42,799 nt of DNA from a virus, in the IMG/VR virus record IMGVR_UViG_3300031276_000005, positions 1 to 42,799 of that record; one strand, written 5' to 3'. The position numbers were made by a program, and so were the translations under genes. This document shows, piece after piece, positions 2,154 to 33,312 of the stretch (positions within the stretch are counted from its first letter, which is position 1; every line of letters starts with the position of its first letter). Under the pieces are notes generated by a model. It searched no databases, was not told the origin of the DNA, and saw nothing but the letters and a program-made list of their open reading frames with translations.

Positions 2154-2611
2154 TGTACGTCAATGATGATGATTATACCACGTATGCGGATACGTTGGGC
2201 GTCACCCTCCCTGCAACGGAGGGTGAACGCCTGATACAATTGGTAAAAGCATCTCAGTATATTGACATGCAGGAACCACATCTGAAAGGAGTTCGCACTG
2301 AGCGTGACCAGGATTATGCATACCCGCGTGATGATCTCTGGATAAATGGTTTTGAGTATGACGATGACGAAATACCGGCAATAGTCGAAAAGGTTCAGAT
2401 GGAACTTGCGCTCGATATAAATGCCGGTGTCGATATTTTTGCACCGTCAAACAATCTACCGGTAATCAAGGAGCGTGTTGAAGGTGCGGTTGAAGTGCAG
2501 TACGCTACTCCAAACGGTGTACAGGATCGCGGGAGAGTATCTAAAGCAATGGAGTTAATGAAACAACTCATGCATAACAACACGTCCTCAATACCATTGG
2601 TCAGGGTTTAA
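2153..2611 (+). CDS. Head-tail adaptor (connector) protein
   Basis: A 152-residue, acidic, helical protein. The pattern of a TYADTLGVTL start, a first helix near residues 22-37 (ERLIQLVKASQYIDM), a YPRDD loop and a second long helix near residues 70-90 is that of the adaptor proteins (HK97 gp6 / SPP1 gp15 type, often annotated 'DnaT-like') that form a ring below the portal. It follows the decoration genes and precedes the stopper, which is the usual order. The start overlaps the upstream stop by one base, indicating translational coupling. Confidence 0.75.
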   Translation: MYVNDDDYTTYADTLGVTLPATEGERLIQLVKASQYIDMQEPHLKGVRTERDQDYAYPRDDLWINGFEYDDDEIPAIVEKVQMELALDINAGVDIFAPSNNLPVIKERVEGAVEVQYATPNGVQDRGRVSKAMELMKQLMHNNTSSIPLVRV

Positions 2612-2612
2612 T

Positions 2613-3002
2613 ATGGCAACCTTCGATTATACCGGACTGCAGAACACTGCGTATAATCTTATTGTAAAGTTCGGTACGACGGTAACAATCACCAGAAAAA
2701 ACGCCGTTGAAAATCCTGTTACCGGGGTAAGCGATGCTGCTGCTGCGACAACCGGTACATTAAATGTAGTTTCAGTACCTGCTTCAAAAACTGATTTTGA
2801 TGACAAAATAATCGGAATGGCTGCTGAGATAGGAACAAGTGCGAAATTTTTTATAGCGTATGCTGTTAATGCTGCGTTTGATCCTGCACCACCTGATTAC
2901 ATTACATTTGGAAGTAAAAATTATTCAGTACTTGGAAGTACAAAAATTGCTCCTGCAGGAAGCGGAAGCGAAATTATTTATCGTATCGGTGTAGCCGTAT
3001 GA
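2613..3002 (+). CDS. Head-closure (stopper) protein candidate
   Basis: A 129-residue beta-rich protein, beginning with a short helix (YTGLQNTAYNLIVKFG) and followed by strands with the segment VTITRKNAVENPVTGVSD, a pattern common in phage head-closure proteins. These form the ring that seals DNA after packaging and contacts the tail. Function is inferred mainly from gene order: adaptor, this gene, HK97 gp10-like protein, tail terminator. The stop at 3000-3002 overlaps the next start (ATGA). Confidence 0.62.
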   Translation: MATFDYTGLQNTAYNLIVKFGTTVTITRKNAVENPVTGVSDAAAATTGTLNVVSVPASKTDFDDKIIGMAAEIGTSAKFFIAYAVNAAFDPAPPDYITFGSKNYSVLGSTKIAPAGSGSEIIYRIGVAV

Positions 3003-3364
3003 GTTTTTCATCTGACATTCATAAATGGGCTGAAAAAACGAATCGCAGAGCCGAAGAGGTTTCGAGGGCGACTAAATTGTCTCTGTTTTCTGGTATTATC
3101 AGAGATACCCGAGTTGATACCGGGAGGTTGCGTGGTAACTGGCAAACGTCAACCGGTGCGCCAAAGTCTACTGAAACATTACGCCGTGATCCTACGGGAG
3201 CAAAGGCAATTCAAGAAGCAATGCAGAACGTTACGGCATACGGTACCGACTACATGACCAATAACCTTCCTTACGCTGAAGTATGGGAAGAAAAAGACGG
3301 GATGGTAGCAAAAAACATTGCCCGTATCGAGCGAACTTTGAAAGAGGCGGTCGCTCATGCTTAA
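2999..3364 (+). CDS. HK97 gp10-like head-tail joining protein
   Basis: A 121-residue basic protein. The sequence IIRDTRVDTGRLRGNW near residues 32-48 is the hallmark of the HK97 gp10-like neck/tail-completion family ('T.VDTGRLR.SW'). The C-terminal half is helical and charged (IARIERTLKEAV). It joins the completed head to the tail. ATGA overlap with the upstream gene and an 8-base overlap with the downstream gene place it firmly in the neck operon. Confidence 0.85.
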   Translation: MSFSSDIHKWAEKTNRRAEEVSRATKLSLFSGIIRDTRVDTGRLRGNWQTSTGAPKSTETLRRDPTGAKAIQEAMQNVTAYGTDYMTNNLPYAEVWEEKDGMVAKNIARIERTLKEAVAHA

Positions 3365-3749
3365 GGTAGATCAGGGATTGACAAATCTTTTCATCTCTTC
3401 CGCTTTCGGATTGCCGATAGCTCATGAGAATGCAAAATATGAGCCAACGCTCGGCACCGCTTATGCAGAAATCTTTACAATTCCGAACGATGAAACCGCA
3501 CTTTCAACCGACTCTGATGTAACCGATGGTTTATTTCGGATAATACTTAGATATCCGGTACAGGGCGGAGCAATTGCAGCAAAAACAATGGCGGATACAA
3601 TTTTTGATGTATTTAAAGTCAATTCATATTTTTACTACGACAATCAGAAAATCGAGATAATTGGCTTTTCCCGCGATACAGGGTATCATGAATCGGGATG
3701 GTATAAGCTGGTTTTATCTATTCGGTACAACGCTTTTATCAGGAGGTAA
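3357..3749 (+). CDS. Tail terminator protein
   Basis: A 130-residue protein with a mixed alpha/beta pattern: an N-terminal Leu-rich segment, a strand with a 'GLFRIILRYP' signature near residues 58-67, a helix (KTMADTIFDVFKVN) and two C-terminal strands. This is the layout of the DUF4128/lambda gpU-type tail terminator family that caps the tail tube. Gene order immediately before the major tail protein agrees. It overlaps the upstream gene by 8 bases. Confidence 0.78.
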   Translation: MLKVDQGLTNLFISSAFGLPIAHENAKYEPTLGTAYAEIFTIPNDETALSTDSDVTDGLFRIILRYPVQGGAIAAKTMADTIFDVFKVNSYFYYDNQKIEIIGFSRDTGYHESGWYKLVLSIRYNAFIRR

Positions 3750-3752
3750 TAA

Positions 3753-4445
3753 ATGTCTATTGGAGATGATGCGAACACCACTGCTGGATCGATACTCTAT
3801 GTGTCAACAAATTTGCCGGCTACCGATACGCTTGCAGGGTTTCAGGCGGTTGCAAGTTACACGAAGATCGGAGACATTTCCGACATGGGTGAATTGCCTA
3901 TTGTTTATACGGCAGTTCCGCATGAAAACATTGAAGAGCGTGTGACAAAAACTCTCAAAGGCGGAAAGGAACCTCAGTCAACAACTATTCAGGTGTCAAG
4001 GGTTGTTTCAGACGCCGGACAGGTGATTCTTTCAACCTACGCTGACGATTCGACGTATCGTGATACTGAGTTGACGGTAAGGATTGTTCATAAGGACGGT
4101 ACTGTATTTTATGGTACTGCCTTGGTTATGTCATTCAGTACCGCTTTCGGGACCATGAATTCGGTTACCGCTCGAACGATTGTCTTTACATTTAATTCAA
4201 CTACATGGGAAGATGTGACAACCCACCATACCATTACATATGCTTCTGGAGCGAACGGACAGGTTATCGGTCCTACCACTCAGGTTATTGCTGATGGTGC
4301 AGACGGTGAATACGTTATTGCACTTCCTGATGCCGGATATCAGTTTGTCGAATGGACTGAGGATAGCGGGGCCGACGAGGAACGGTATGAAGCTGAAGTT
4401 GATGCGGACGCAACATATACCGCGACATTTGAAGCCATACCATAA
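3753..4445 (+). CDS. Major tail tube protein with C-terminal InlB-B-repeat-like domain
   Basis: A 230-residue protein. Residues 1 to about 150 look like a siphophage tail tube subunit (beta-rich, with the EERVTKTLKGGKEPQSTT loop near residues 55-72). Residues about 157-230 form a separate domain. It opens with HTITYASGANGQV, contains PDAGYQFVEWTEDSG, and ends in DADATYTATFEA. That is the pattern of divergent InlB B-repeat (beta-grasp) domains found on bacterial surface proteins. Such C-terminal extensions decorate the outside of the tail tube and may bind carbohydrate or cell surfaces. The RBS is AGGAGG before 3753. Confidence 0.85.
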   Translation: MSIGDDANTTAGSILYVSTNLPATDTLAGFQAVASYTKIGDISDMGELPIVYTAVPHENIEERVTKTLKGGKEPQSTTIQVSRVVSDAGQVILSTYADDSTYRDTELTVRIVHKDGTVFYGTALVMSFSTAFGTMNSVTARTIVFTFNSTTWEDVTTHHTITYASGANGQVIGPTTQVIADGADGEYVIALPDAGYQFVEWTEDSGADEERYEAEVDADATYTATFEAIP

Positions 4446-5245: not shown

Positions 5246-7380
5246 GTGCCAATGTTGATTTTGCATCTTTGGTAGTAAAGGCTAATTCTACCGAATTAAA
5301 ACAACTTCGAAATGTGATGCGAGAGGTTGACGGTCAGGCAAAAAAGACCGAGAAATCAACTGGTATGCTTTCAGGTGCTTTCGGTAAACTTGCCGCTGCC
5401 GCAGGTGCTTATTTCGGAATAAGAAAAGGAATTGACATATTTAAGGATTTGACCAGAGCTGGATCTGACCTTTACGAAACGGTGAATAAAGGTGCAGTTG
5501 TTCTTGGTGATTCATTTTCTGAGGTTGAAAAATTCGCCGATAATGCTGCAGCTTCACTCGGACAATCCAAAAAAGAAGCAATTGACGCCGCCTCTACATT
5601 TGGAATTTTCGGGAAATCTGCCGGGCTTGCCGGTAAGGATCTTGGGGATTTTTCAATTCAGTTTACAAAACTCGCTTCTGATTTTGCTTCATTCTACAAT
5701 ACATCTCCAGAAGATGCGATAACGGCTATCGGTGCAGCCATGCGCGGCGAACAGGAGCCTATCAGGAGATACGGTATACTGCTCGATGAGGCAACTCTAA
5801 GGCAGGCTGCATTAGAGGCCGGTATAGTGTCAACCACAAAAAAGGCATTGACACCACAGCAACGTGTTCTTGCTGCAAGTAAAGAAATAATGAAGCAATC
5901 ATCTGATGCGCAAGGAGATTTTGCGAGGACATCTGACGGGTTAGCGAATAAACAGCGGATACTTGCGGCTACCATTGAAGATACTAAGGCGGCTCTTGGG
6001 GAGGGGTTGATTCCAATTATGGATCAGTTCCTTGAGTTGTCCCTCAAAATAGCTGGAAGCAAAAAGTTGACAAGTTTTTTCAAGGATTTGATCAAAGGTG
6101 TTTCAATTGAAATCGATTTGCTTACTGGTAAATCTATTGACTACATAAAAACAACCAGAAGCATATCTGATGCAATGAAAGAAGGTGGAGAAACCGGGGA
6201 AAAGATATTGTCGTTGAGATTGACAGAATTAAATCAAAAATGGGAAGAAACCAACCAGAAAATAAAGGACGTTCAGAATCCATCTACTGTTTTGGGTAAG
6301 ATATGGCAGAAAATGGGCGGTTCAAAATTCGGAGATGATCTTGAAAAATATAAAAAAGAGCTTAAAGAAATTGAAGAACAAACCGTATTGATCGGTCGGG
6401 CAATGGCTGGTGGAGATAATGTTCCTGGAACCGATTCAGGTGCAACCACAAACAAAAAAACAGCCACTGAAGATACATCATGGAAAGACCTGAAAGATGC
6501 TTTAGGCGCGGAATGGCTTGACATACACAATAAAAAACTTGAAATCACTAAAAAATCAAATGAGGCAATCAAGGCAGAAAATGACAGAAAACTACAGGAA
6601 GATATTGAGCGTGATACTATCTATCGTCAATTAATTGATGAGGCGAGAGTTGCAGAAATTGAAAACATACAAAACGAAGTTGAAAAGGAAATTGCTTTAC
6701 ATGAATATAAGTTTCAAAGGTTGAAAGAACTATACGAAGAAGGATCTGAAGAGTTAACGGCAATAGAGCGTATCGAGAACGCAGAACGTCAAAAATTGAT
6801 TTTGCGTACTAAAAAAATCCAAGACGAAAATAATATGGCTGCACTTTCTTCTGCCGAAAAAATGTTTGGCGGAATAATGGAGGCGACATATAAATTCGGT
6901 GGAGAACAAACGGCGTTTTATAAAACAATGTTTGTAATGAAAAAAAGTATCGCCCTTGCCGAGTCAATTATGGCAATTGCAACAGGATTAGCCGAATCTT
7001 CAAAAGTCGGTTGGCCTCAAAACCTGATTACCATGGCAGGTCATATTGTTACTACTGCAGGAATTATTGGAGAGATAGCAGCAGTAAACTTTTCCGGAGC
7101 AAAAGACAGAGGCGGAACAATCCCTGCTGGTACCTGGGGAATAGCCGGGGAGTACGGACCTGAGATTGTTCAGGGACCGGCAAATGTGATAAGCAGGGTA
7201 GATACTGCGAATATGCTGAATGGTAATACCACATCGAATAATCAGAGACCGATCGAGTTTCATACTCATATAACGGTAACAGGTAATTTTATCGGAAACA
7301 ATGCAGCAATGCGCGATCTTGCAAAAGAGGTTAATTTACAAATGCAAAATGAACTTACCAGACTCGGGGCGGTTATATAA
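5242..7380 (+). CDS. Tape measure protein
   Basis: A 712-residue, largely helical protein. It has the typical N-terminal start (MSANVDFASLVVKANSTEL, then KQLRNVMREVDGQAKK), a hydrophobic segment near residues 45-62, the conserved 'FGIFGKSAG...QEPIRRYGILLDEATL' region (about 120-190) and a long coiled-coil part (about 320-520) rich in Glu and Lys. A second hydrophobic region lies near residues 565-625 and precedes the C-terminal 'RGGTIPAGTWGIAGEYGPEIV' motif common to these proteins. It sets tail length: about 700 residues at roughly 0.15 nm each suggests a tail near 100 nm. It likely also helps DNA cross the host envelope. Confidence 0.93.
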   Translation: MSANVDFASLVVKANSTELKQLRNVMREVDGQAKKTEKSTGMLSGAFGKLAAAAGAYFGIRKGIDIFKDLTRAGSDLYETVNKGAVVLGDSFSEVEKFADNAAASLGQSKKEAIDAASTFGIFGKSAGLAGKDLGDFSIQFTKLASDFASFYNTSPEDAITAIGAAMRGEQEPIRRYGILLDEATLRQAALEAGIVSTTKKALTPQQRVLAASKEIMKQSSDAQGDFARTSDGLANKQRILAATIEDTKAALGEGLIPIMDQFLELSLKIAGSKKLTSFFKDLIKGVSIEIDLLTGKSIDYIKTTRSISDAMKEGGETGEKILSLRLTELNQKWEETNQKIKDVQNPSTVLGKIWQKMGGSKFGDDLEKYKKELKEIEEQTVLIGRAMAGGDNVPGTDSGATTNKKTATEDTSWKDLKDALGAEWLDIHNKKLEITKKSNEAIKAENDRKLQEDIERDTIYRQLIDEARVAEIENIQNEVEKEIALHEYKFQRLKELYEEGSEELTAIERIENAERQKLILRTKKIQDENNMAALSSAEKMFGGIMEATYKFGGEQTAFYKTMFVMKKSIALAESIMAIATGLAESSKVGWPQNLITMAGHIVTTAGIIGEIAAVNFSGAKDRGGTIPAGTWGIAGEYGPEIVQGPANVISRVDTANMLNGNTTSNNQRPIEFHTHITVTGNFIGNNAAMRDLAKEVNLQMQNELTRLGAVI

Positions 7381-7763
7381 TGGCTGAAAATGGCGACATT
7401 ACACTGTATAAAACTGGTGAATCAGAGGTATTGCTTTCCTCGTATGGTAGACGTGTCAAGAAATCATGGGAAGAGGGCGGAAGATCTGATAGAACTTTTT
7501 CGGGGCCATTAAAAACAGATATTACCTGGAGAAGGTACCGATTTGAAATACCATACAGCTTAATAACTCCAGCAGCATATACCGCATTGTTTGCATTGTA
7601 TAATCTTGATTGTGACCTCAACTTAAAATTGTATACATCACCAACAACATGGTTTTTGAACTTTGATGGAAATATTCCTGTCGTTAAGATGGAGCCTTTT
7701 GGAGATGAAAGATTCGTACAGTCATATTCAAAGAACGTTAACCTTGTTTTGATTGAAATATAA
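7380..7763 (+). CDS. Tail tip protein (distal-tail-like)
   Basis: A 127-residue protein starting at the last base of the tape measure stop (TAATG). Beta-rich, with the segments RRVKKSWEEGGRSDRTFSG and ITWRRYRFEIPYSLI, as in small minor tail proteins that follow the tape measure and connect the tail tube to the hub. Residues 95-127 contain FVQSYSKNVNLVLIEI, typical of the final strands of such domains. Function is inferred from position, size and pattern. Confidence 0.6.
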   Translation: MAENGDITLYKTGESEVLLSSYGRRVKKSWEEGGRSDRTFSGPLKTDITWRRYRFEIPYSLITPAAYTALFALYNLDCDLNLKLYTSPTTWFLNFDGNIPVVKMEPFGDERFVQSYSKNVNLVLIEI

Positions 7764-9739
7764 TGATTACTCCTCCGAGTGCAGAATTTACCACTGCGGC
7801 ATCTTCAAATAGAAGGTACCCGAAAATAAAAATAGATGCGTTATGGACTGATCCATTCGTACAGTCTGGTAATACTGTAACATCATCTCATGTCAATAAC
7901 TTTGGCGATCTCGATTCTGAGGTAGTTGACGATTTGTTGCTTCACGTTGCTGATACTAAATTATCCACTCCTCACAAGTACGTTATCAATGATGGTACCC
8001 TCATAAACGACGGCACATTTTACCCGGTTCCAGGAACCATTGAGGAGGCGGCATACAACCAAGTGGGATGGTATACTTCTGGAGTTGCGGATGGTGCCGG
8101 AGATTTTGCAACTCCACAACAAATAACTGTTACGTTTGCAGAAGCGAGAACAGTGAAGCAATTGATTGTAGTTGGCGAGCCAACTTTAGGTGAGTATCCT
8201 ACTGATTTTGACGTTGAAGTGTACGACGACGACGACGTTCTTCTGAATTCAGTAACCAATTATACCGGAACATCCGTTGAAACGATAGTCGATCTGACTG
8301 CCGACGAAATAAACACTGCAAAATATATGGTATTGACTTTGAACTCATGGTCTGCAGCAGATACAATCGGGAAAATAGTTGAATTTTTCGGCGTTGTTTC
8401 AGATACGTTTACTGGCACAGATATTGTATCGATGAACATTCTTGAAGAGCTTATGGCAGACGATGGAACACCATACGGTGCTATGTCAAGTAATGAATTG
8501 ACTATTGATTTACAAAACATATCACTTACCAAAGACGGTACAGATATAGAAGATCCTTTTTTACCTGAAAATACAGCTTCGTACTTGAAAAATTCCATAA
8601 CTCAAAACGTCAGACTTACTCCTTACATTGGTTTTTTACTACCTGATACTTCAATCGAATATGTAAAAATGGGTGTGTACTGGTCAATGCCAGATTGGGA
8701 AGTGTCTCAGAGTGAATACTCGGCGTCCGTAACAGCCCGCGACCGGATGGAGATATTGAGAAACAATACTTTTATTGCGGATGAAATACTTGAAAGCACC
8801 AGTCTTGCAGAAATAGCAGAATATGTATTGAACTCTGCAAAAGTAAATATTCCGCTCAATGATCTTGAATGGGATGTCGATTCATCATTAGAAGATTTTT
8901 CTGTAGATTACGCATGGCTTGGAAAGGTAACATATTTTGAAGCACTGACTCAAATTGCGAAGGCATGTATTGGAAGGTGTTATTGCAACCGAGACGGAGT
9001 TATAGTTCTTGAATCATATCTGTCAGATTCTGTTACTGGATCAGCAGATTTTACGTTGACAGGAAACGATTATTTCAAATTAAATCGTAAAATGCAAAAA
9101 ATAAAGAATTATATAAAAGTTCCTGTATGTCCACTTATTCCTGAAGATGAAGACGACGACATTTACACGTCTGATGAAATAACTGTTGGCGAATCAGATA
9201 CCACTATCGAGCAGGAAATCGATTTAGACGACATTGTGGTATACGAGTATTCAGATGTAATTATAGAGGATACTGACGTTGAAATGTATGTATCAGTAAG
9301 CGAATATTATCCTAACAGGTTTAAAATAACTTTTACCAAGGCAACCGGAACGTCTGGAACATTCAACTATAAAATTGTCGGTAAAAAACTTGTTCCAACA
9401 GAAGGAAATGAACCAGTAATTGATTTTGACGCCGACTCTATATCAAAATACGACAAGCAGGAACACGAGTTGAAGGATAATTATTTAATACAAACAACCG
9501 AAGTTGCCGAATTGATTGCATCGGTGATGTTGCTTACTCTAAAAAACAATCGACGTGATGCAACCGTTGAATATCAGGGTAATCCGTGTTACGAGATAGG
9601 TGACAGATCAGACAGCGAGACGTATACAAAATTGTCAAGATCAGAAGAGTTTCGGACAATACGGCAGCGGTTTGTAGCTAACAGATCAGGGTTGAGGTGT
9701 AAAATGACGGCAAAAAAAACAATTAACTACGGAGAGTAA
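7763..9739 (+). CDS. Large tail hub / receptor-proximal protein with discoidin-like insert
   Basis: A 658-residue acidic protein. Residues about 100-215 look like a galactose-binding (F5/8 type C, discoidin) beta-sandwich: 'QITVTFAEARTVKQLIVV' followed by 'PTDFDVEVYDDDDVLLNSV' and 'TAKYMVLTLNSW'. The rest (about 220-658) resembles central tail hub proteins, with a helical part (TSLAEIAEYVLNSAKV) and repeated strands. Its place directly after the small tail tip protein supports a baseplate hub role. A carbohydrate-binding module inside a hub would help first contact with the host surface. The C-terminus is basic (RFVANRSGLRCKMTAKKT). Confidence 0.7.
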   Translation: MITPPSAEFTTAASSNRRYPKIKIDALWTDPFVQSGNTVTSSHVNNFGDLDSEVVDDLLLHVADTKLSTPHKYVINDGTLINDGTFYPVPGTIEEAAYNQVGWYTSGVADGAGDFATPQQITVTFAEARTVKQLIVVGEPTLGEYPTDFDVEVYDDDDVLLNSVTNYTGTSVETIVDLTADEINTAKYMVLTLNSWSAADTIGKIVEFFGVVSDTFTGTDIVSMNILEELMADDGTPYGAMSSNELTIDLQNISLTKDGTDIEDPFLPENTASYLKNSITQNVRLTPYIGFLLPDTSIEYVKMGVYWSMPDWEVSQSEYSASVTARDRMEILRNNTFIADEILESTSLAEIAEYVLNSAKVNIPLNDLEWDVDSSLEDFSVDYAWLGKVTYFEALTQIAKACIGRCYCNRDGVIVLESYLSDSVTGSADFTLTGNDYFKLNRKMQKIKNYIKVPVCPLIPEDEDDDIYTSDEITVGESDTTIEQEIDLDDIVVYEYSDVIIEDTDVEMYVSVSEYYPNRFKITFTKATGTSGTFNYKIVGKKLVPTEGNEPVIDFDADSISKYDKQEHELKDNYLIQTTEVAELIASVMLLTLKNNRRDATVEYQGNPCYEIGDRSDSETYTKLSRSEEFRTIRQRFVANRSGLRCKMTAKKTINYGE

Positions 9740-9742
9740 TTT

Positions 9743-10195
9743 ATGGGTACCGAACAGTGGCAGACGGCAAAAACTGATTATGGCGTAGAAGGAATACCAA
9801 CTACATTTTTTAATAAAATCGAGGGCAATGCTGCGGTGAATCATAAGGGGGGCGGGCAAGCGTCACTGTCTACCATAGCGGCTGATTCAAACTATTTGCT
9901 CGATATAGACGATGATGAAAACACGTTCTACCTTGATCTTGATACGTCATACGATCTAAAGTTTATATCTACAACAAACCGGCAACCGAATAATACCATA
10001 CGTTTGATTACCACAGGAACCGGGATCGTATCACTCTTTAACAATTCTGCATCACCACCGGCGAACTCAGAGGCGATATATGTTAGCGGTGCTGGTGCAT
10101 CAGAATCAAGTTATGCCTTTGCATCGTATTCAATTTACACTTTCACGTACAGCGGAACACACTGGTATTGTAATCCGTTCGCGGTATTAACCTGA
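9743..10195 (+). CDS. Small tail-associated protein, unknown
   Basis: A 150-residue beta-rich protein of unknown family between the hub and the fibre genes. It begins with a tryptophan-containing helix (GTEQWQTAKTDYGVEG) followed by strands with many Asn, Ser and Thr, ending in the aromatic HWYCNPFAVLT. Composition and position suggest a virion component near the tail tip or a fibre-attachment domain. A GGAGAG ribosome binding site is placed before ATG 9743. Confidence 0.6.
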   Translation: MGTEQWQTAKTDYGVEGIPTTFFNKIEGNAAVNHKGGGQASLSTIAADSNYLLDIDDDENTFYLDLDTSYDLKFISTTNRQPNNTIRLITTGTGIVSLFNNSASPPANSEAIYVSGAGASESSYAFASYSIYTFTYSGTHWYCNPFAVLT

Positions 10196-10196
10196 T

Positions 10197-10721
10197 ATGT
10201 ATAAAAGAAAATCAACAACCGGAAGTAAGATATTTGATAGTGCTCTTGATGACATCTATCATATCTTGAACACCTTTTCTCCAAGGGCAATAACTGCCGG
10301 TGGCTCATCGGTTACAAATAATTACCCGATTACTACCGAGGGTGGATTCTATGTAACCGGAACAAACGGAATGGGTTATAAGTTGTTGAAAGGAATGCTG
10401 GTCAAGGCGTCGAGCACATCGAATCAATCGATTAGAATAGCCGATATGGGTGACTATAATATTCTCGGTGTTGTTTATGAAGATACACTTCCTGCCGGTA
10501 CCTGTAAAATAGTCGTTTCCGGTATGGTTTATATATATTTTAATAGTAACGGAGCAACAAGGGGCGATTACTTGAGAATAAGTAAATCAGGCGATACGGC
10601 GAACGAGGACAGGGGCAAGGCGCAATCGTCCTTTACCCGCCCTGATGCCTTGTTTTTGAAAGGATTTGTGCACGAAACCATTGCCGGAGAAGGGTTGGCG
10701 TTATGTACGTTATTGCGATAA
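10197..10721 (+). CDS. Tail-associated beta protein, unknown
   Basis: A 174-residue protein. Residues about 60-150 read as a compact beta barrel (YKLLKGMLVKASSTSNQSI, ILGVVYEDTLPAGTCKIVVSG, GATRGDYLRIS), reminiscent of the capsid/tail decoration folds that carry 'lifted' polypeptide loops. The family is not recognised. Its last 19 bases overlap the start of the fibre gene, so the two are probably translated together and may form a complex. Confidence 0.55.
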   Translation: MYKRKSTTGSKIFDSALDDIYHILNTFSPRAITAGGSSVTNNYPITTEGGFYVTGTNGMGYKLLKGMLVKASSTSNQSIRIADMGDYNILGVVYEDTLPAGTCKIVVSGMVYIYFNSNGATRGDYLRISKSGDTANEDRGKAQSSFTRPDALFLKGFVHETIAGEGLALCTLLR

Positions 10722-16095: not shown

Positions 16096-16252
16096 GTATA
16101 ACGGTTTAGCAAGGCAGAAGTTTGCCCGCTGTTACAGTTTTTCTCCACAGTATGAACAATTGGCCTGCCTTGATTCCCATTCAGAAAGCTCGCACCCGCA
16201 TGAAGGGCAAATTTGGGTGAAGGCTTCCGTAACCTGCCTTGCATTGTTATGC
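16096..16252 (-). repeat. attC-like element 1
   Basis: On the + strand it reads GTATAACGG (16096-16104), arm GCAAGGCAG (16109-16117), a long spacer, the perfectly complementary arm CTGCCTTGC (16234-16242) and a GTTATGC box (16246-16252). The outer boxes pair (AAC with GTT) with unpaired bases between the two stems, as in integron attC hairpins. Total length 157 bp. The 3' end of the gene at 16132-16377 runs into it. A further inverted repeat (GCCCGTTTTAGAA at 16253 onward against TTCTAAAACGGGC at 16391 onward) flanks the cassette. Confidence 0.7.
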
Positions 16253-16377
16253 GCCCGTTTTAGAAGCTCCTTAATGTCCTCAAATTTGACCCACACACCG
16301 TTTGGTGACTCGCCTACATAAAGTTGGGTCGGATCATCTACCGAAATGCCTATTCTGTACCTTTTCAAATTTGACAT
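16132..16377 (-). CDS. Cassette gene: zinc-ribbon protein
   Basis: An 81-residue protein, last gene of the array in the direction of transcription. The N-terminal half has strands and a helix (VKFEDIKELLKRAH). The C-terminal half is a zinc ribbon with CPSCGCELSEWESRQANCSYCG. The ribbon is encoded inside attC-like element 1, so any exchange at that site would change the C-terminus. Start ATG at 16377. The function is unknown. Similar two-CxxC ribbons occur on small phage proteins that bind nucleic acid or host factors. Confidence 0.6.
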   Translation of the reverse strand: MSNLKRYRIGISVDDPTQLYVGESPNGVWVKFEDIKELLKRAHNNARQVTEAFTQICPSCGCELSEWESRQANCSYCGEKL

Positions 16378-16403
16378 ACAATAAAGACCTTTCTAAAACG
16401 GGC

Positions 16404-16443
16404 GTATAACGGTTTCAGGCACCCGCCCGAAGTTGCGTTACGA
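16404..16443 (-). repeat. attC-like element 2 (compact)
   Basis: GTATAACGG at 16404-16412 and GTTACGA at 16437-16443 flank a hairpin TTTCAGGC-accc-GCCCGAAG with one mismatch and one wobble. AACG pairs with CGTT outside it and there is a G/TTG internal loop between the stems. This is the smallest member (40 bp), and its 3' box is less like the GTTATGC form, so it may be degenerate. It lies over the stop of the gene at 16415-16633. Confidence 0.5.
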
Positions 16444-16633
16444 CTGCATTCAATTCCATTTCCAAAATATCTTTTTTACATGCCTCCATAGCTTTCCCGA
16501 AGGCACTATAACACTCTTCGCATAGTGGACCGATTTCATCACCGTGAGGAATCTCAAGATATATGCTATCGTCAGAACGACCGGCCCGACCTGTTTCTGA
16601 ATTGCACAACTGACAGTATTCTAAAGGAGGCAT
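16415..16633 (-). CDS. Cassette gene: cysteine-rich protein
   Basis: A 72-residue protein starting at ATG 16633, preceded by the TTGGAG ribosome binding site shared by several cassettes (an upstream TTG would include that site in the coding region). It carries CQLCNSETG near the N-terminus and CEECYSAFGKAM in the middle, consistent with one zinc knuckle, followed by a helix of acidic and hydrophobic residues. Leader DNA of about 170 bp separates it from the next element. The function is unknown. Confidence 0.55.
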   Translation of the reverse strand: MPPLEYCQLCNSETGRAGRSDDSIYLEIPHGDEIGPLCEECYSAFGKAMEACKKDILEMELNAVVTQLRAGA

Positions 16634-16682
16634 TAGAAACTCCAATTCTAAAAAGTAAAATTTGATTGCCCTCCTTATTATT

Positions 16683-16844
16683 CAGCGCACATTTCACCCG
16701 CTCGTCAGCTAACCACTTGGACGTATGCAAAAGCCACTCTCCCCGCATGGATCACAGCCTTACACGGTGGTACTCAGTGCGCCTATAATTCAAAGAGCAA
16801 TCAAAACTTGCACACAACGGGTTGCAAATGGGTGAAGTGCGCTG
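16683..16844. repeat. Long inverted repeat overlapping attC-like element 3
   Basis: CAGCGCAC-AT-TTCACCC at 16683-16699 pairs with GGGTGAA-GTGCGCTG at 16830-16844, 15 base pairs with a two-base bulge on one side. A GTTACTG box follows at 16847-16853, but I see no matching AAC box on the outer left side. It may be a decayed attC-like site. The span 16634-16807 otherwise holds no gene that I can support. Confidence 0.5.
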
Positions 16845-16902
16845 GCGTTACTGATCGCAACCGGTAGCACTCATCCGACCGCTAAATCCACCCCGTGTGC
16901 AA
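16808..16902 (-). repeat. attC-like element 3
   Basis: TTGCACAC at 16808-16815 is the reverse complement of GTGTGCAA at 16895-16902, and an ACAACGG box follows the first arm. On the reverse strand the pairing GCACACGGG with CCCGTTGTGTGC leaves three extra bases, similar to extrahelical bases in attC hairpins. Length 95 bp. It overlaps the 3' end of the gene at 16871-17128. Boxes are less canonical than in elements 7, 9 and 10. Confidence 0.5.
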
Positions 16903-17128
16903 CCGAGATGTCCAAGCGCATTTCCACCCTTTGCGTGTTGGTAGAAGTTTTTGTTTCCACCAAATTATACTGTCGCTCCTGCATCGGTAAAACAGGGCCG
17001 TAACTTTCTTTTGCGATAGCACCACATACAGAACACTGTTTAGGAGGTGGGTTTATTCCGTACCAAGCCGAAGGAATGCAAACGGGACCACCACAGACAC
17101 CACACGTTCCAACTGTAATATTGCTCAA
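16871..17128 (-). CDS. Cassette gene: small zinc-binding-like protein
   Basis: An 85-residue protein. The likely start is the TTG at 17128, eight bases after a TTGGAGG ribosome binding site. Residues 8-40 contain CGVCGGPVCIPSAWYGINPP and CSVCG, two CxxC pairs suited to a zinc ribbon. The rest is unstructured-looking and ends within attC-like element 3. No function is known. Confidence 0.5.
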   Translation of the reverse strand: MSNITVGTCGVCGGPVCIPSAWYGINPPPKQCSVCGAIAKESYGPVLPMQERQYNLVETKTSTNTQRVEMRLDISVAHGVDLAVG

Positions 17129-17171
17129 AGCGACCTCCAAATTAAAAGAAACAAAAATTTACGAAGCGAAC

Positions 17172-17424
17172 TACCAACGGTTCGCGGTTAAGCGAAGTAT
17201 TTAAAATATTCCTAATTTCTTTTTTAGCTCGCGTGCCTTATCGCGCACCATTTGCCAAGCATAATCTTCCGCAAACAAATCTTCTGAATAAACCTTCTCA
17301 CCATTATGGAAAAGGCACACACTGTTTCCAACCTGCTTGATAATAATCTGATGTTCCATTTTTTCTCCAAGAGCTAAAAACTATAATTAAAAATTTTAAA
17401 TATTTTGTTTAACCGCTGTTAGTT
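17172..17424 (-). repeat. attC-like element 4, enclosing a whole small gene
   Basis: TACCAACGG at 17172-17180 with arm GCGGTTAA (17184-17191) pairs perfectly with TTAACCGC (17409-17416), followed by GTTAGTT (17418-17424). The 253-bp element is longer than usual because the 52-residue gene at 17201-17359 lies between the arms. The right arm overlaps the last codons of the gene at 17396-17773. Either one cassette carries two genes or a gene was inserted into the loop. Confidence 0.5.
17201..17359 (-). CDS. 52-residue protein inside attC-like element 4
   Basis: ATG at 17359 is preceded by TTGGAGAAAAA, the cassette-type ribosome binding site, and the frame runs to TAA at 17201-17203. The product begins MEHQIIIKQVGNSVCLF, continues with a short acidic part and ends in a basic helix (MVRDKARELKKKLGIF). 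It has coding-like composition and a proper start. No family is recognised. It sits wholly between the arms of element 4. Confidence 0.6.
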   Translation of the reverse strand: MEHQIIIKQVGNSVCLFHNGEKVYSEDLFAEDYAWQMVRDKARELKKKLGIF

Positions 17425-17773
17425 TCCCCGCAGGGCAAGCCGCATGCAACATAGAATCGATTTTATCCCGCATAGTTAAAAAGTCATGAAAACCACATTC
17501 TGCCAATTCACAAGATAATGCATCGTCCGAATCTGCTATTGCCCGACAATCAATCATTTTTTGATCACACCACTGTTTCAATTCAAGAAGCGGCGCAGAG
17601 TTTGCCGGTTGCTCCTTATTTAATTCAAGAGCACGCTTGACCAGTAAAAGCAAATCATCCTCAATTACGCCAAAGAGCATATGCCCGTCTTTCCAGTAAC
17701 ATTTTTTAAGAAGCCCGAAGGCAAAATCATACACCATCTGGGTAATTGGATCTCGTTGACAATTTTGGCTCAT
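17396..17773 (-). CDS. Cassette gene, unknown
   Basis: A 125-residue mainly helical protein. A GGAGCACGCT site precedes ATG 17773. It contains helices QMVYDFAFGLLKKCYW and ELNKEQPANSAPLLELKQWCDQKM, ending in KLTAVKQNI where the codons overlap the right arm of attC-like element 4. Five of its residues are cysteine but they are not in CxxC pairs. No family is recognised. Confidence 0.6.
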   Translation of the reverse strand: MSQNCQRDPITQMVYDFAFGLLKKCYWKDGHMLFGVIEDDLLLLVKRALELNKEQPANSAPLLELKQWCDQKMIDCRAIADSDDALSCELAECGFHDFLTMRDKIDSMLHAACPAGKLTAVKQNI

Positions 17774-17810
17774 AGCGTGCTCCTATCATAGAGTAAAACC
17801 GGCAAATTGA

Positions 17811-17978
17811 AACTAACGGTTTAGGGTAAAAGAAGTTAGACGGGAATCCACCCGGAATAACCACTATCGCATTTATCCGGTAAACAAGTTCCGCTACTTC
17901 TACGACCGCACGAACCACAAACCCGTCCAATTTCCCCACCGGGCGTAGGCGCAGCCGGAGTTTTACCCTTTGTTATGG
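17811..17978 (-). repeat. attC-like element 6
   Basis: AACTAACGG (17811-17819), arm GGGTAAAA (17824-17831), and on the other side TTTTACCC (17961-17968) with GTTATGG (17972-17978); 168 bp. The stretch 17943-17983 is identical to 18907-18947 in element 8, and AACGGTTTAGGGTAAAAGAA is shared at the left end, while the spacers differ. Near-identical ends around different cargo are the mark of cassette repeats such as VCR or XCR arrays. Confidence 0.72.
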
Positions 17979-18270
17979 GCTGTGTTTCCGCTTCCTTTGA
18001 ATCATGTTTTTCGCAAACGTCTCGGCCTACCAACCATTCTACCTGCTGCATTGTAATGGCGTTCGCACACTGTTCGCAAACAGGGACAAGATCAAAATCA
18101 ATATTGAACCTATTTACAGCTAAGCCTCCACACACTTTACATTCCATGCGAAAAACCTCCAATTTCAAAACGGTTACACCGGGAAACTGATCATTATCTG
18201 CAAAGGCGTTACGTACTGCCTCGTCATCCCATGAATCATCAAATGTAAGAATGGCTTTCAACTGCGACAT
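17836..18270 (-). CDS. Cassette gene: cysteine-rich protein with attC-encoded tail
   Basis: A 144-residue protein from ATG 18270 (AAAGGATATT upstream). A longer frame from 18318 has no ribosome binding site. A first zinc-type motif, CKVCGG with CEQC, lies near residues 44-70. The tail is QPITKGKTPAAPT followed by CGSCGRRSSGTCLPDKC. The QPITKGKTPAAPT part is encoded by the 41-bp repeat shared with the gene at 18791-19057, so it comes from the recombination element, not from common ancestry of the genes. Confidence 0.6.
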   Translation of the reverse strand: MSQLKAILTFDDSWDDEAVRNAFADNDQFPGVTVLKLEVFRMECKVCGGLAVNRFNIDFDLVPVCEQCANAITMQQVEWLVGRDVCEKHDSKEAETQPITKGKTPAAPTPGGEIGRVCGSCGRRSSGTCLPDKCDSGYSGWIPV

Positions 18271-18321
18271 ACTGCAATATCCTTTCTTAGCCCGGCCTTT
18301 GATATGGCCGCCGAGCAATTG

Positions 18322-18400
18322 CCTATAACGGTTCGCGGCACCGGCCAGAGCCGGGGCGCACGAAGTAATTGAAAATTATTTTGTGCTGCCGCTGTTATGC
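18322..18400 (-). repeat. attC-like element 7
   Basis: CCTATAACGG (18322-18331), arm GCGGCA (18335-18340), an inner CCGGCCAGAGCCGG hairpin, then TGCCGC (18387-18392) and GTTATGC (18394-18400). Length 79 bp. It lies entirely between two genes, which is the standard attC position, and has both boxes, both arms and unpaired central bases. One of the clearest members. Confidence 0.78.
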
Positions 18401-18413
18401 GAAGTTTTTTAAC

Positions 18414-18746
18414 CTACCCTACTGTTAAAATTGCCGGGTTAACGACGCCACTGTTTGCTTCACTTTCTTTGACACCGTGGTCACCATTCCATTTAATTCT
18501 GAACTCTTCGCCGCGACTGTGACATTGCGAAATAATGTTTGCTGCACACCCAGCCATGAACCCGGTAATACCACCGGCACCGCACTCCTCGTCAGCACGG
18601 CATAATAGTTTGTAACAGTCAAATTCACCGGACTCAGCATCAAGTATTTCCATTGCGCGGCGAGCTACATCAACCACGGCTTTACCGTATGGGTCTGAAT
18701 TGTTTGAAACGCACTGCTGCCACTCTTTCTGCTTAACGATAGGCAT
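18414..18746 (-). CDS. Cassette gene, unknown
   Basis: A 110-residue protein starting at ATG 18746 (TTGGAGTAAAAT ahead). Helical N-terminal half (KAVVDVARRAMEILDAESGEF), then ADEECGAGGITGFMAGCAANIISQC in a Gly/Ala/Cys-rich segment. The C-terminus is polar. Similar cassette-like genes are common in phage genomes but I cannot name a function. Confidence 0.6.
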   Translation of the reverse strand: MPIVKQKEWQQCVSNNSDPYGKAVVDVARRAMEILDAESGEFDCYKLLCRADEECGAGGITGFMAGCAANIISQCHSRGEEFRIKWNGDHGVKESEANSGVVNPAILTVG

Positions 18747-18780
18747 ATTTTACTCCAATTTAAAAAGGTTAAAAAATTTT

Positions 18781-18942
18781 GTATAACGGTTTAGGGTAAA
18801 AGAAGTTGCCGCGCCCATTCCCGTAATTTACTATTATGATGGTTATAACACTGAGCTTTATTTGACTCAGCCAGTGCTATCATTTCAGCGGCAATTTCCG
18901 CGTAGCGCGTAGGCGCAGCCGGAGTTTTACCCTTTGTTATGG
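18781..18942 (-). repeat. attC-like element 8
   Basis: GTATAACGG (18781-18789), arm GGGTAAAA (18794-18801), complementary TTTTACCC (18925-18932), GTTATGG (18936-18942); 162 bp. A second pairing GGCGCAGCC with GCCGCGCCC lies inside. It shares both ends with element 6 (41 identical bases at the right end) and nothing in the middle. The gene at 18791-19057 reads through it. Confidence 0.72.
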
Positions 18943-19057
18943 GCTGTTGAACGGGCTCCAAAGCACTTTTTATGCGCAACCACGCAGGAGTAATAGATTC
19001 GCTATACGCACGATTTACAAGATACGTTTCAATTGTTTCAATATTGTCACTGAGCAT
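18791..19057 (-). CDS. Cassette gene with attC-encoded C-terminus
   Basis: An 88-residue protein from ATG 19057 (ATTGGAGTTTTTT ahead; the in-frame TTG at 19069 is part of that site). The N-terminal 36 residues are unique (LSDNIETIETYLVNRAYSESI), followed by QPITKGKTPAAPT and a helix with ALAESNKAQCYNHHNSKL. The second half is encoded by attC-like element 8. No function is assigned. Confidence 0.55.
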   Translation of the reverse strand: MLSDNIETIETYLVNRAYSESITPAWLRIKSALEPVQQPITKGKTPAAPTRYAEIAAEMIALAESNKAQCYNHHNSKLREWARQLLLP

Positions 19058-19090
19058 AAAAAACTCCAATCAAATTTAGGAGTGAAATTG

Positions 19091-19165
19091 CCTATAACGT
19101 TTGTGCATAGCAGAAGTGCGCAGCATTTGGGAGAGCGGTAGCGAACCTGCTATGCTGTGTTAGCT
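19091..19165 (-). repeat. attC-like element 9
   Basis: CCTATAACG (19091-19099), arm GCATAGCAG (19105-19113), complementary CTGCTATGC (19147-19155), GTTAGCT (19159-19165); 75 bp and fully intergenic. Nine perfect pairs in the inner stem, paired outer boxes and short unpaired stretches between them make it the most typical attC-like hairpin of the array. Confidence 0.8.
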
Positions 19166-19188
19166 GTTGTTTGCGGATGCTCCCCTTG

Positions 19189-19404
19189 TCAAATTTCTTC
19201 CACTGTTACGTGACCGGAAATGCGCACGAAATCTTCTTCTGCCCAACCTTGCTGATGAAACCCGACACCCAACGACCCCTCACGGCCTTTAACCAGGCAT
19301 GTTCCAGTATTAGGGCTTGAAAACAACACAACTCTACCTGTGCTCTTTGCCTGCTTTAGACATGGGTATTCTTCCACTTTGTTAACAACTGTTCCTTTAA
19401 GCAT
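19189..19404 (-). CDS. Cassette gene, small beta-rich protein
   Basis: A 71-residue protein with ATG at 19404 after an ACGGAGG site. The sequence (LKGTVVNKVEEYPCLKQAKS, VVLFSSPNTGTCLVKG) reads as four or five strands, suggesting a small barrel. It ends 24 bases before attC-like element 9. No function is assigned. Confidence 0.58.
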   Translation of the reverse strand: MLKGTVVNKVEEYPCLKQAKSTGRVVLFSSPNTGTCLVKGREGSLGVGFHQQGWAEEDFVRISGHVTVEEI

Positions 19405-19455
19405 ACAAACCTCCGTTTTTAGAAATTTAATCCAATATGGTCAGCCGCAAATTGC

Positions 19456-19609
19456 AGCTAACGGTTAAGACTATGTGCAGTTTTCCGCTTTGGGAAAATT
19501 GAGGCTCGCTATTAAGTCGCTCACCTTACCAACCTTGGTAACAGTATCGCCTCGACCGTGAATAATTTTCTTAATCTTTACAAGAGCCGCCATATAGTCT
19601 GTGTTATGC
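19456..19609 (-). repeat. attC-like element 10
   Basis: AGCTAACGG (19456-19464), arm AGACTAT (19468-19474), complementary ATAGTCT (19594-19600), GTTATGC (19603-19609); 154 bp. The right end resembles that of element 12 (GCCRTATAGTC before GTTA). The last 47 codons of the gene at 19471-19755 lie inside it. Confidence 0.7.
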
Positions 19610-19755
19610 GCTGGTTTTTGAACATCCGAATTATACGAAATTTTTCTACCACAAATTTCGTTAACAACGGGTAAAACCGAATCGCCACCACCTGCAACCA
19701 GGCCAGCCATGTGAAATTGACGCAACTCAGTATCGTTAATAACAAACCAGTCCAT
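19471..19755 (-). CDS. Cassette gene with attC-encoded C-terminal helix
   Basis: A 94-residue protein from ATG 19755 (GGAGGAAATTTTT ahead). The N-terminal half starts DWFVINDTELRQFHMAG. The C-terminal half reads HNTDYMAALVKIKKIIHG and so on, and parallels NIDYTAALEEELMDFFG in the gene at 20274-20534, because both are translated from related attC-like ends. This is a shared C-terminal module on otherwise unrelated proteins. Confidence 0.58.
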   Translation of the reverse strand: MDWFVINDTELRQFHMAGLVAGGGDSVLPVVNEICGRKISYNSDVQKPAHNTDYMAALVKIKKIIHGRGDTVTKVGKVSDLIASLNFPKAENCT

Positions 19756-19792
19756 AAAAATTTCCTCCAACTCAAAAGTTCAAACAACTGGC

Positions 19793-19878
19793 GTATAACG
19801 GAAAAGCTAAACGACGTTACCGGCTTCCGGTAATGTGCCTTGTGCCGGAGCCGAAGGCGGAGCGTTTAGCGGTTGTTG
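19793..19878 (-). repeat. attC-like element 11
   Basis: GTATAACGG (19793-19801), arm GCTAAACG (19806-19813), complementary CGTTTAGC (19863-19870), GTTGTTG (19872-19878); 86 bp with an inner hairpin CCGGCTTCCGG. The right-hand box is the most divergent of the set. It covers the last codons of the gene at 19807-20196. Confidence 0.65.
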
Positions 19879-20196
19879 GTTGTTGTTCGAGTTTTCTTCC
19901 GCATTCTCCAGCGGCGCATCTTTGACTCTTTGAACGATTGCCGCATGACCCTTGACCGCATCATCCCAACTGCAATATCGATCCATTTCGCCATCTAATG
20001 GACCGCCAAAAACCATCGTCTCGAAAAGTACAGGTTCACCGGACTCGAAACTATGATCGATACATAAAAAAACTGTCGAAACCTGCACGTTGCCTATCTT
20101 GGTTTTATCAACCCTTCGATTGGCAATATCCCATGCCGAAGCGTCAAACTCTTCGCACGCCACCGGAACTTTGTTTACTAATTTGTAGTGTTTCAA
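19807..20196 (-). CDS. Cassette gene: widespread phage/environmental hypothetical protein
   Basis: A 129-residue protein. The start is TTG at 20196 after GAAAGGGG. The sequence KHYKLVNKVPVACEEFDASAWDIANRRVDKT, then VSTVFLCIDHSF and PVLFETMVFGG, then YCSWDDAVKGH, matches a family I know as very common and uncharacterised in phages and plasmids. The core ends near residue 95. The last 35 residues (Asn/Pro-rich) come from attC-like element 11. Function is unknown. Confidence 0.72.
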   Translation of the reverse strand: MKHYKLVNKVPVACEEFDASAWDIANRRVDKTKIGNVQVSTVFLCIDHSFESGEPVLFETMVFGGPLDGEMDRYCSWDDAVKGHAAIVQRVKDAPLENAEENSNNNQQPLNAPPSAPAQGTLPEAGNVV

Positions 20197-20258
20197 ATTT
20201 AACCCCTTTCGTTTTTATTAGCGCCGCGATTACAATTCAAGAGAAAACTCGAATTGCA

Positions 20259-20421
20259 ACCAACGGGCCTCGACTATGCGAAGTTCTGCAGTGCTTTGAC
20301 TGCGGAATTTAGGCGCGTTGCCAGTTTACTTAAATTAAGGTTTTTTATTATATCTAAAGGGCCGGTACCGAAAAAATCCATCAACTCCTCTTCCAGCGCC
20401 GCCGTATAGTCGATGTTAGCA
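20259..20421 (-). repeat. attC-like element 12
   Basis: ACCAACGG (20259-20266), arm TCGACTAT (20270-20277), complementary ATAGTCGA (20406-20413), GTTAGCA (20415-20421); 163 bp. First element of the array in the direction of transcription. A further GTTAGCA on the reverse strand at 20575-20581, just before the first gene, could be the boundary or an attI-like remnant. Confidence 0.7.
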
Positions 20422-20534
20422 GATGCGGAGGGAGCGGATTCATCAGATTCAGAGGCCATTAAACACGGCTCACAATAGCACTCAATCTGCATTGGTGAAA
20501 TCTCTCTACCGCACCTTGTACACATTATTCTCAT
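20274..20534 (-). CDS. Cassette gene 1: zinc-finger protein with attC-encoded helix
   Basis: An 86-residue protein, ATG 20534 after GGAGG. Residues 5-25 have CTRCGREISPMQIECYCEPC, a four-cysteine zinc site. A Ser/Ala/Asp-rich linker follows, then NIDYTAALEEELMDFFG and a Leu-rich helix encoded inside attC-like element 12. First gene of the cassette array. Function unknown. Confidence 0.6.
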   Translation of the reverse strand: MRIMCTRCGREISPMQIECYCEPCLMASESDESAPSASANIDYTAALEEELMDFFGTGPLDIIKNLNLSKLATRLNSAVKALQNFA

Positions 20535-20587
20535 TATGGCCTCCTATAATTCGTTCCGGAGCGACCGGAGTTTTTGCTAACTTGTTT

Positions 20588-20788
20588 CTAAACGAACTTT
20601 TTATCTACAATCCGATCCTCATCGAACGCAACCAGAAGATAATGAATAACGTCACGGTAATCTATCTTTTTATAACCTTCTGATATGTGATCAATTACAT
20701 CGTTCGCAATTCTAATATCATTTTTACCGACGATCCGAGTCTGTATAAAATCGCCGGTTCCTCGTTTGGTATATTTTTTCTTGGTCAT
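20588..20788 (-). CDS. Small basic protein at the head of the array
   Basis: A 66-residue protein. It is basic at the N-terminus (MTKKKYTKRG), with a strand-like QTRIVGKNDIRIAND and a helix-turn-helix-like ISEGYKKIDYRDVIHYLLVAFDED that could be a ribbon-helix-helix type DNA-binding fold. The promoter at 20795-20823 would start transcription at or next to the A of its ATG, so it may be made from a leaderless message. It lies outside the attC-like elements. Confidence 0.55.
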   Translation of the reverse strand: MTKKKYTKRGTGDFIQTRIVGKNDIRIANDVIDHISEGYKKIDYRDVIHYLLVAFDEDRIVDKKFV

Positions 20789-32517: not shown

Positions 32518-33312
32518 ATGAAAACGTGTTGCCACTGCAAGCAAGAAAAACCACTGTCTGAATTTTTTAATTCGTCAAAATCTGCGGATAGAAAATGGCA
32601 CTGGTGCAAACAATGTGAATATTTGGCAAGAAAACAAAGCGACGAGATGAAATACTGTCTATCCTTCTCTGGCGGGAAGGACAGTACGGCACTTTTGATT
32701 TTACTGCTTGAGAAAAAAATGCCACTCGATAAAATAGTTTATTTTGATTGCGAGGAGTTTGAATTTCCAGAAATGCGCGGTCATATCGAAAGGGTAAAAC
32801 AGGTTTTAGGGGTAGAAATAGAAGAGTGCCATACAGTAAAACCGTTTCGTCAGTACATAGAAGAAATCGGGTGGGCAACACCGCGTTTGAGGTGGTGCAC
32901 AAATGAAAAAATAAACAGCATACGACGGGCGCTAAGATTTTATCGTCCGTGTACTCAGTATGTTGGGTACGCATCAGACGAAACTATGAGAATAAAAAGG
33001 GCAAACAAAAAGAACAAAGCAAGAAGGAGAGATTATTTTCTTAAATATTCCTTTCCTCTTGTCGAGTATGGTATAACAGAAAAAAAGGCGTTAGAAATAT
33101 GCTATTCTAATGGCTTTGACTTCGGTGGGCTATATGAACATTGGAATCGTGTTTCGTGTTGGTGTTGTCCGCTACAAAGAAATAAAGACCTCGAAAAACT
33201 ACAAGAACTAAGGCCTGAGCTTTATAAAAAACTAATTGATATGGATAAAACCGCGCCTAATGGGTATAAGTTTGGTTCATATAAAAATAAGGAAGCTTTA
33301 AAGCTAAAATGA
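32518..33312 (+). CDS. PAPS-reductase-family protein with N-terminal zinc finger
   Basis: A 264-residue protein. Residues 4-33 hold CCHCKQEKPLSEFF and CKQC, a small treble-clef type finger. SFSGGKDSTALL (49-60) is the PP-loop of the PAPS reductase / adenine-nucleotide-alpha-hydrolase superfamily. Downstream ATPRLRWCTNEKI, GYASDET and CWCCPLQ are the family's other blocks. Phage members of this family may modify DNA or nucleotides with sulphur, similar to DndC, or act in anti-defence. Substrate cannot be read from sequence. Transcribed from the sigma-54-type promoter. Confidence 0.82.
   Translation: MKTCCHCKQEKPLSEFFNSSKSADRKWHWCKQCEYLARKQSDEMKYCLSFSGGKDSTALLILLLEKKMPLDKIVYFDCEEFEFPEMRGHIERVKQVLGVEIEECHTVKPFRQYIEEIGWATPRLRWCTNEKINSIRRALRFYRPCTQYVGYASDETMRIKRANKKNKARRRDYFLKYSFPLVEYGITEKKALEICYSNGFDFGGLYEHWNRVSCWCCPLQRNKDLEKLQELRPELYKKLIDMDKTAPNGYKFGSYKNKEALKLK

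Follow-up and report, generated by a model that had tools for sequence, protein, structure and literature searches.

What moves an array of small genes, set apart by integron-like hairpins, in a phage genome that encodes no integron integrase? The question is raised by IMG/VR virus record IMGVR_UViG_3300031276_000005, a stretch of 42,799 bases that makes up the entire virus record and is called the window here. Between positions 16096 and 20600 it has 11 gene units, all leftward, and an equal number of attC-like sites, ten complete and one a half site (E1 to E11, Table 1). We conclude that this region is probably a cassette array of the integron type whose own recombinase was lost or never present, and that its sites belong to a class found with tyrosine recombinases lacking the I2 insertion of the classical integron integrase, IntI. 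As it encodes no recombinase, the array is formally a CALIN (cluster of attC sites lacking an integrase), a label that asks for at least two attC within 4 kb; here ten complete sites lie within 4.5 kb, with the attC calls and the CALIN definition scored by the analysis's own models and not by IntegronFinder or HattCI. A TIGR02249 search, positive in 14 of 14 control genomes, detected no tyrosine recombinase in the entire window at an E-value of 1e-3, I2-less integrases of this complete record included, in agreement with an initial annotation of the sequence that had seen no integrase gene.

Array anatomy and pairing of unit ends

All open reading frames (ORFs) of the array run in the same direction on the - strand, and most begin 33–68 nt past a crossover. 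The ORF list bears out the twelve small leftward genes of the initial annotation, and its eleven palindromic elements are present as well, except that E2 has no convincing 5' half and ten have both arms. Each hairpin is bounded by R boxes of the integron form, RYYYAAC / GTTRRRY, a GCTAAC box (AAC at 20579) closes the array at its far side, and the inner arms pair inside each element (none of 200,000 permutations reaches the observed sum). A strict pattern of YAAC, 0–4 nt, a perfect stem of at least 8 bp, 4–7 nt and GTTR retrieves seven sites from the window, all within the array and on the - strand, with none on the + strand; its background is 8 occurrences in 730 kb of unrelated strand. The annotation had likewise counted seven elements with perfect inner stems, of 6–9 bp.

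The two ends of each unit are complementary to one another. Pairing scores average 9.9 for the ends of one unit and 5.3 when ends of separate units are compared, a difference reached in 0 of 200,000 permutations; removing the 4-nt R box leaves the pairing in place (again 0 of 200,000). No such pairing joins the two flanks of a single element, each of which derives from a different unit (156,062 of 200,000), and inverted repeats of 31, 27, 23 and 22 nt around the gene bodies are largely this own-end pairing. Complementarity of this kind is expected if a unit was once a circle closed at G^TT, because its two ends would then have been neighbours in one site. Own-end pairing in a Vibrio array lies within the R box only (476 of 200,000; beyond the R box, 127,036 of 200,000) and in a Shewanella array it is likewise limited to the R box (beyond it, 91,160 of 200,000), while 68 cassettes from viral contigs pair beyond the R box too (0 of 200,000). 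Own-end complementarity without pairing across an element marks the window units as joined at G^TT and gives the integron signature in extended form.

Site geometry and recombinases without I2

The window sites have spacers of 1–4 nt on the R'' side and 5–6 nt on the R' side and a mostly unbroken stem of 7–9 bp; most carry [CA]AC[TG]TC directly before the 3' arm, and they do not have an extra base at +9. Sites from Vibrio, Shewanella, class 1 integrons and phage TJE1 differ: their two spacers are mostly about equal in length, the 5' arm mostly has a single extra base some 9 nt after AAC, and the strict pattern matches none of about 30 such canonical sites. The pattern does match both sites in each of three loci from bacterial metagenome-assembled genomes, L031, L074 and L076, and two sites in L021, from a 71-kb phage record. 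A model of boxes, spacers and stem was trained on 118 sites from viral contigs, with no window sequence included. Under this model nine window elements rank first to ninth on the - strand with scores of 29–44, seven of them exceeding every site in 30 shuffled windows, and the best score on the + strand is 26.5; the sites of L031, L074 and L076 score 32–45, and canonical sites mostly 23–33.

To judge from this geometry, the window sites are not canonical IntI sites and look like those found beside I2-less tyrosine recombinases. The attC identity first assigned to them therefore stands for the R boxes and hairpins and fails for the geometry, and the plan had been read on the wrong strand: the strict pattern and the trained model both put site polarity on the - strand, matching the genes and pointing away from the array end at which an integrase would lie, as in arrays of I2-less integrases. 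With no strict site and no better score on the + strand, reverse polarity with the + strand as top was dropped, and swapping of tails between genes by recombination in that polarity was dropped on the same evidence. The broader claim, that a phage carries an integron-type cassette array free of an integrase, is upheld by the own-end pairing, the G^TT crossovers and the independently trained site model.

A pattern scan of genomes returned 22 matches, mostly chance, of which L031, in a groundwater metagenome-assembled genome labelled Caldisericum, is a real site; L041 and L045 look alike and were rejected as having no matching arm. Reading along L031, a tyrosine recombinase whose N-terminus has a HARP-like stretch is followed by the junction ATATGAATAAG^TTAGGC, then by a cassette and a site, and lastly by a methylase with another site. 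Relatives of its recombinase in two more genomes (L074 and L076) stand in the same layout, the L076 recombinase carrying a stop codon. Aligned with three IntI, the L031 and L074 recombinases have no IntI-specific I2 insertion, and in NCBIfam the L031 protein passes the cut-off of NF040815 (XerA / integron integrase) but not the one set for TIGR02249. A supported branch in a tree of 20 recombinases separates three Xer-like proteins from the I2-less proteins and IntI, the position of the root being open. The L031 recombinase has a single match, with internal stop codons, in 145 genomes from the phylum of genome G004, and relatives of it are found in phages and plasmids. The post-integrase junctions read CGTATATGAATAAG^TTAGGC in L031, CGTATATGAACGAG^TTAGGC in L074 and CGGATATGAACAAG^TTGTGT in L076. 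The window array head shares 14 of 20 bases with the L031 junction, partly owing to the R box, which we take as a resemblance only. As a separate observation, the L031 recombinase has relatives on two Chryseobacterium plasmids, about 42% identical over 95% (NZ_CP041688, 16020-17030, and NZ_CP094530, 38306-39316).

Scanning viral contigs with the pattern gave eight matches, seven apparently due to chance and one real (L008, 71-kb phage); the 71-kb phage record holds a small array that includes an MT-A70 methylase cassette. A search with the L031 recombinase led to 80 IMG/VR loci, a set that includes near-duplicates. The I2 region has 0 residues in all 80 of these viral recombinases versus 29–31 in three IntI. 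Of the 140 strict sites in these loci, 12 share the integrase's strand and 128 are on the other, against a background of about 18 over both strands, and the sites lie mostly just past the integrase start codon. A terminase exceeded the cut-off in 6 of 20 tested records. In L155 a large terminase (2506-4050) lies on one side of the integrase (5664-6464) and the array, with a portal-like gene (8146-9453) on the other, and in L107 the terminase comes after the integrase. The phage contigs L151 and L155 (L155 2506-9453 and L151 1-2010) have the same flanks around their cassettes and are 92% identical downstream; on the array side the similarity ends exactly at GGATAAC and is followed by different cassettes, which is cassette turnover at the crossover between natural relatives. 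Two further observations concern these loci. The large terminase of L107 is apparently split into two ORFs with phrog_22677 between them (6754-10414), and L096 and L157 are one 246-kb record with two I2-less integrase loci, which share a 234-bp segment, 99% identical, that stops at the edge of a site (observed through the near-copy L154).

Proposed recombination in trans, alternatives and known integrons

Each unit has the layout G^TT-ORF-attC on the - strand, and in the mechanism that we propose its site is of an attC class recombined not by classical IntI but by I2-less relatives of it, which bacteria and other phages encode. Such an integrase could be supplied in trans by the host or by a co-resident phage. 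It would make a hairpin of a single strand of a site and perform the exchange at G^TT, and units could enter, leave or change order in the form of single-gene circles. For the phage, the benefit would be a repertoire of small accessory genes that is open to change, among them a likely Thoeris inhibitor of the Tad4 family. We consider shuffling in trans by an I2-less integrase the most likely account of the array. Beyond this locus, we tentatively favour the view that such arrays form a separate integron class, with I2-less recombinases and a different hairpin geometry, that occurs widely in phages and in part of the bacteria. In phages it would serve to carry and swap small accessory and anti-defence genes, some arrays being recombinase-free; I2 would not be needed for shuffling, and the class may resemble the ancestor of classical integrons.

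Several points weigh against this account. Recombination itself is something that we infer, none having been observed for this array, and for the acting recombinase there is a candidate class of enzymes. No close relative of the phage was found, so gain or loss in this very array is not demonstrable. E3 and E2 lie at background under the trained model. Cassette ORFs at the viral loci oppose the site polarity and run towards the integrase in 59 of 68 cases, while those of the window, L031, L074 and L076 follow it, and some of the IMG/VR contigs may be bacterial rather than viral.

The alternative that survives best is an ordinary CALIN, made of cassettes from classical integrons and recombined in trans by a host IntI with its I2 helix. 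Its R boxes, hairpin plan and one-ORF units would all be integron-like, as they are here, and canonical cassettes likewise show own-end pairing in the R box, as in Vibrio. Because IntI1 recombines diverse phage sites, having acted on five of the six attC sites from virulent phages tested by Qi et al. 2023 (PMC9892861), this alternative keeps some weight. The missing base at +9 and a spacer asymmetry of 2–4 nt speak against it, as do own-end pairing beyond the R box, which neither Vibrio nor Shewanella has, and the lower scores of canonical sites under the class model (about 23–33 versus 29–44 for nine window sites). On this evidence we regard it as unlikely; the host integron integrase once suggested as the route of gene acquisition is probably not a classical IntI, the sites matching the I2-less class.

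Palindromic regulatory or RNA-processing hairpins, copied without a recombinase between the genes of a phage operon, would suit the co-directional genes, the position of the hairpins at gene ends and the many ORFs that read through them. They would not give G^TT crossovers, unit-end complementarity without pairing across the hairpin, a fixed polarity or the same site class beside integrases, and we think this explanation very improbable. Hardly credible is an assembly artefact fusing a bacterial integron fragment into a phage contig: a chimera is possible in principle in a metagenomic record of the IMG/VR type, but the 127-bp terminal repeat, the phage genes that flank the array on both sides, the similar G+C of array and flanks (0.446 vs 0.430), the kinship of cassette genes with phage genes and the same site subfamily in an independent 71-kb phage record all oppose it.

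Shuffling by an I2-less integrase also has to be set beside what is known of phage arrays and integrons. CALINs in phages are already known: Qi et al. 2023 (PMC9892861) counted 17 of them among 10,705 phage genomes. The suggestion that phage arrays of this size are undescribed therefore holds in part, as the published one with a stated count is small (phage TJE1, 3 attC; PMC9892861). The CALINs of virulent phages (TJE1, PH101 and P12002L; PMC9892861) likewise consist of small genes separated by attC without an integrase; TJE1 has three sites to the ten complete ones of the window, and the TJE1 site examined is canonical, with the extra base at +9 that the window sites lack. Classical IntI integrons (class 1, Vibrio, Shewanella) have in common with the window the R boxes, single-ORF cassettes, hairpin sites and own-end R-box pairing. 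The window departs from them in its unequal spacers, the mostly unbroken 7–9 bp stem directly inside these, the conserved motif before the 3' arm, the pairing beyond the R box and the absence of I2 from the recombinases of its class. Arrays of the NF040815 type (L031, L074 and L076; L155, L107 and L095 from IMG/VR) match the window in site geometry and own-end pairing; the first three have an attI-like junction, which its array head may resemble. Unlike the window they carry a recombinase, and most of the viral ones have ORFs against the site polarity.

The I2 helix has been held necessary for cassette capture and a marker of integron integrases (PMC7790495), and the authors of IntegronFinder describe an extra domain as setting IntI apart from other integrases (PMC9024848). 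With IntI defined by I2, arrays with I2-less recombinases would be logged as CALINs or missed; we found no description of I2-less integrons in the open-access literature, most preprints and subscription journals lying outside the scope of that search. What is new is that a complete phage genome has ten complete sites in one array, that this array includes a predicted anti-defence cassette, and that it is linked to arrays with I2-less recombinases. If I2-less arrays work, the origin of integrons and the need for I2 become testable in living systems, and a phage array that is shuffled and includes a predicted anti-defence gene would be the counterpart of bacterial integrons with their defence genes.

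The phage genome and its cassette cargo

An exact 127-bp terminal repeat marks the phage genome as complete and circularly assembled. PHROG matches identify a major head protein, portal, large terminase, head morphogenesis protein, tape measure, tail fibre and RecT, and further genes encode RusA, a DnaA/IstB-like ATPase and a PAPS-reductase-like protein (a PAPS-reductase domain, PF01507, is encoded at 32518-33312). The terminase reaches at best about 56% identity to phage proteins over most of its length. Megablast of the first 25 kb against 50,697 phage records found no near relative, and neither searches of viral contigs with a flanking gene and the portal nor a search with an exact site sequence found relatives of the phage; a search of viral contigs for the Tad4 cassette found none. 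No tRNA genes were found in the window, and no Rfam family reached its gathering score there.

Searching the cassette ORFs against phage databases, as had been advised, revealed relatives in other phages for cassettes 2, 6 and 10. The product of cassette 6 is likely a type I Thoeris inhibitor of the Tad4 family, by its match to PF25186 over its entire length (46.2 bits, the Pfam gathering cut-off being 25; E 6e-12) and to phrog_9822 (E 8e-15); it is a distant member, with about 30–35% identity to Bacillus phage homologues. Several other cassettes encode small Cys-rich proteins, and no PADLOC family matched a cassette protein convincingly.

Table 1 Features of the cassette array in the window.
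Feature	Coordinates	Strand	AAC/GTT starts (+ strand)	Details
attI-proximal array end	20576..20600	-		CGTTTAGAAACAAG^TTAGCA; resembles L031, L074 and L076 post-integrase junctions
Cassette 1 ORF	20274..20534	-		86 aa; Cys-rich N-terminus; TAG stop inside E11 3' arm
attC E11	20258..20421	-	20262/20415	strict pattern, 8-bp stem, spacers 1/5; model score 31.3
Cassette 2 ORF	19807..20196	-		129 aa; relatives in several large phages, 31-45% identity; reads through E10
attC E10	19793..19881	-	19797/19875	model score 29.1
Cassette 3 ORF	19471..19755	-		94 aa; reads through E9
attC E9	19456..19609	-	19460/19603	model score 38.1
Cassette 4 ORF	19189..19404	-		71 aa
attC E8	19092..19165	-	19096/19159	66 nt between boxes; 9-bp stem; model score 39.9
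Cassette 5 ORF	18791..19057	-		88 aa; TAA stop 3 nt short of crossover
attC E7	18781..18942	-	18785/18936	model score 43.9
Cassette 6 ORF	18414..18746	-		110 aa; likely Tad4 family (type I Thoeris inhibitor)
attC E6	18323..18400	-	18327/18394	model score 37.8
Cassette 7 ORF	17836..18270	-		144 aa; Cys-rich tail encoded within E5
attC E5	17811..17978	-	17815/17972	model score 43.1
Cassette 8, first ORF	17396..17773	-		125 aa
Cassette 8, second ORF	17201..17359	-		52 aa; wholly inside E4
attC E4	17172..17424	-	17176/17418	245 nt between boxes; 8-bp stem; model score 36.2
Cassette 9 ORF	16871..17128	-		85 aa; Cys-rich
attC E3	16812..16943	-	16816/16937	stem with one extra base; weak model score 23.5
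Cassette 10 ORF	16415..16633	-		72 aa; residues 4-43 62% identical to Azospirillum phage Cd sequence
attC E2	16404..16435	-	16408 (3' half only)	3' half only (CAACTTC...GAAACCGTTATAC); score 22.7, not above background
Cassette 11 ORF	16132..16377	-		81 aa; zinc-ribbon-like tail encoded within E1
attC E1	16096..16252	-	16100/16246	9-bp stem; model score 42.0

The ORF enters its own complete site in 8 of the 11 cassettes, and in five the stop lies 3–9 nt before the crossover, so that sites are translated into C-terminal tails. E5 and E7 have a common stem and outer 56 nt (91%) and unrelated loops, which lead to different protein tails. Zinc-ribbon-like tails come from attC loops in two phages, at 16132-16230 in the window and 19137-19287 in L021, and the two records match each other exactly over 17 nt.

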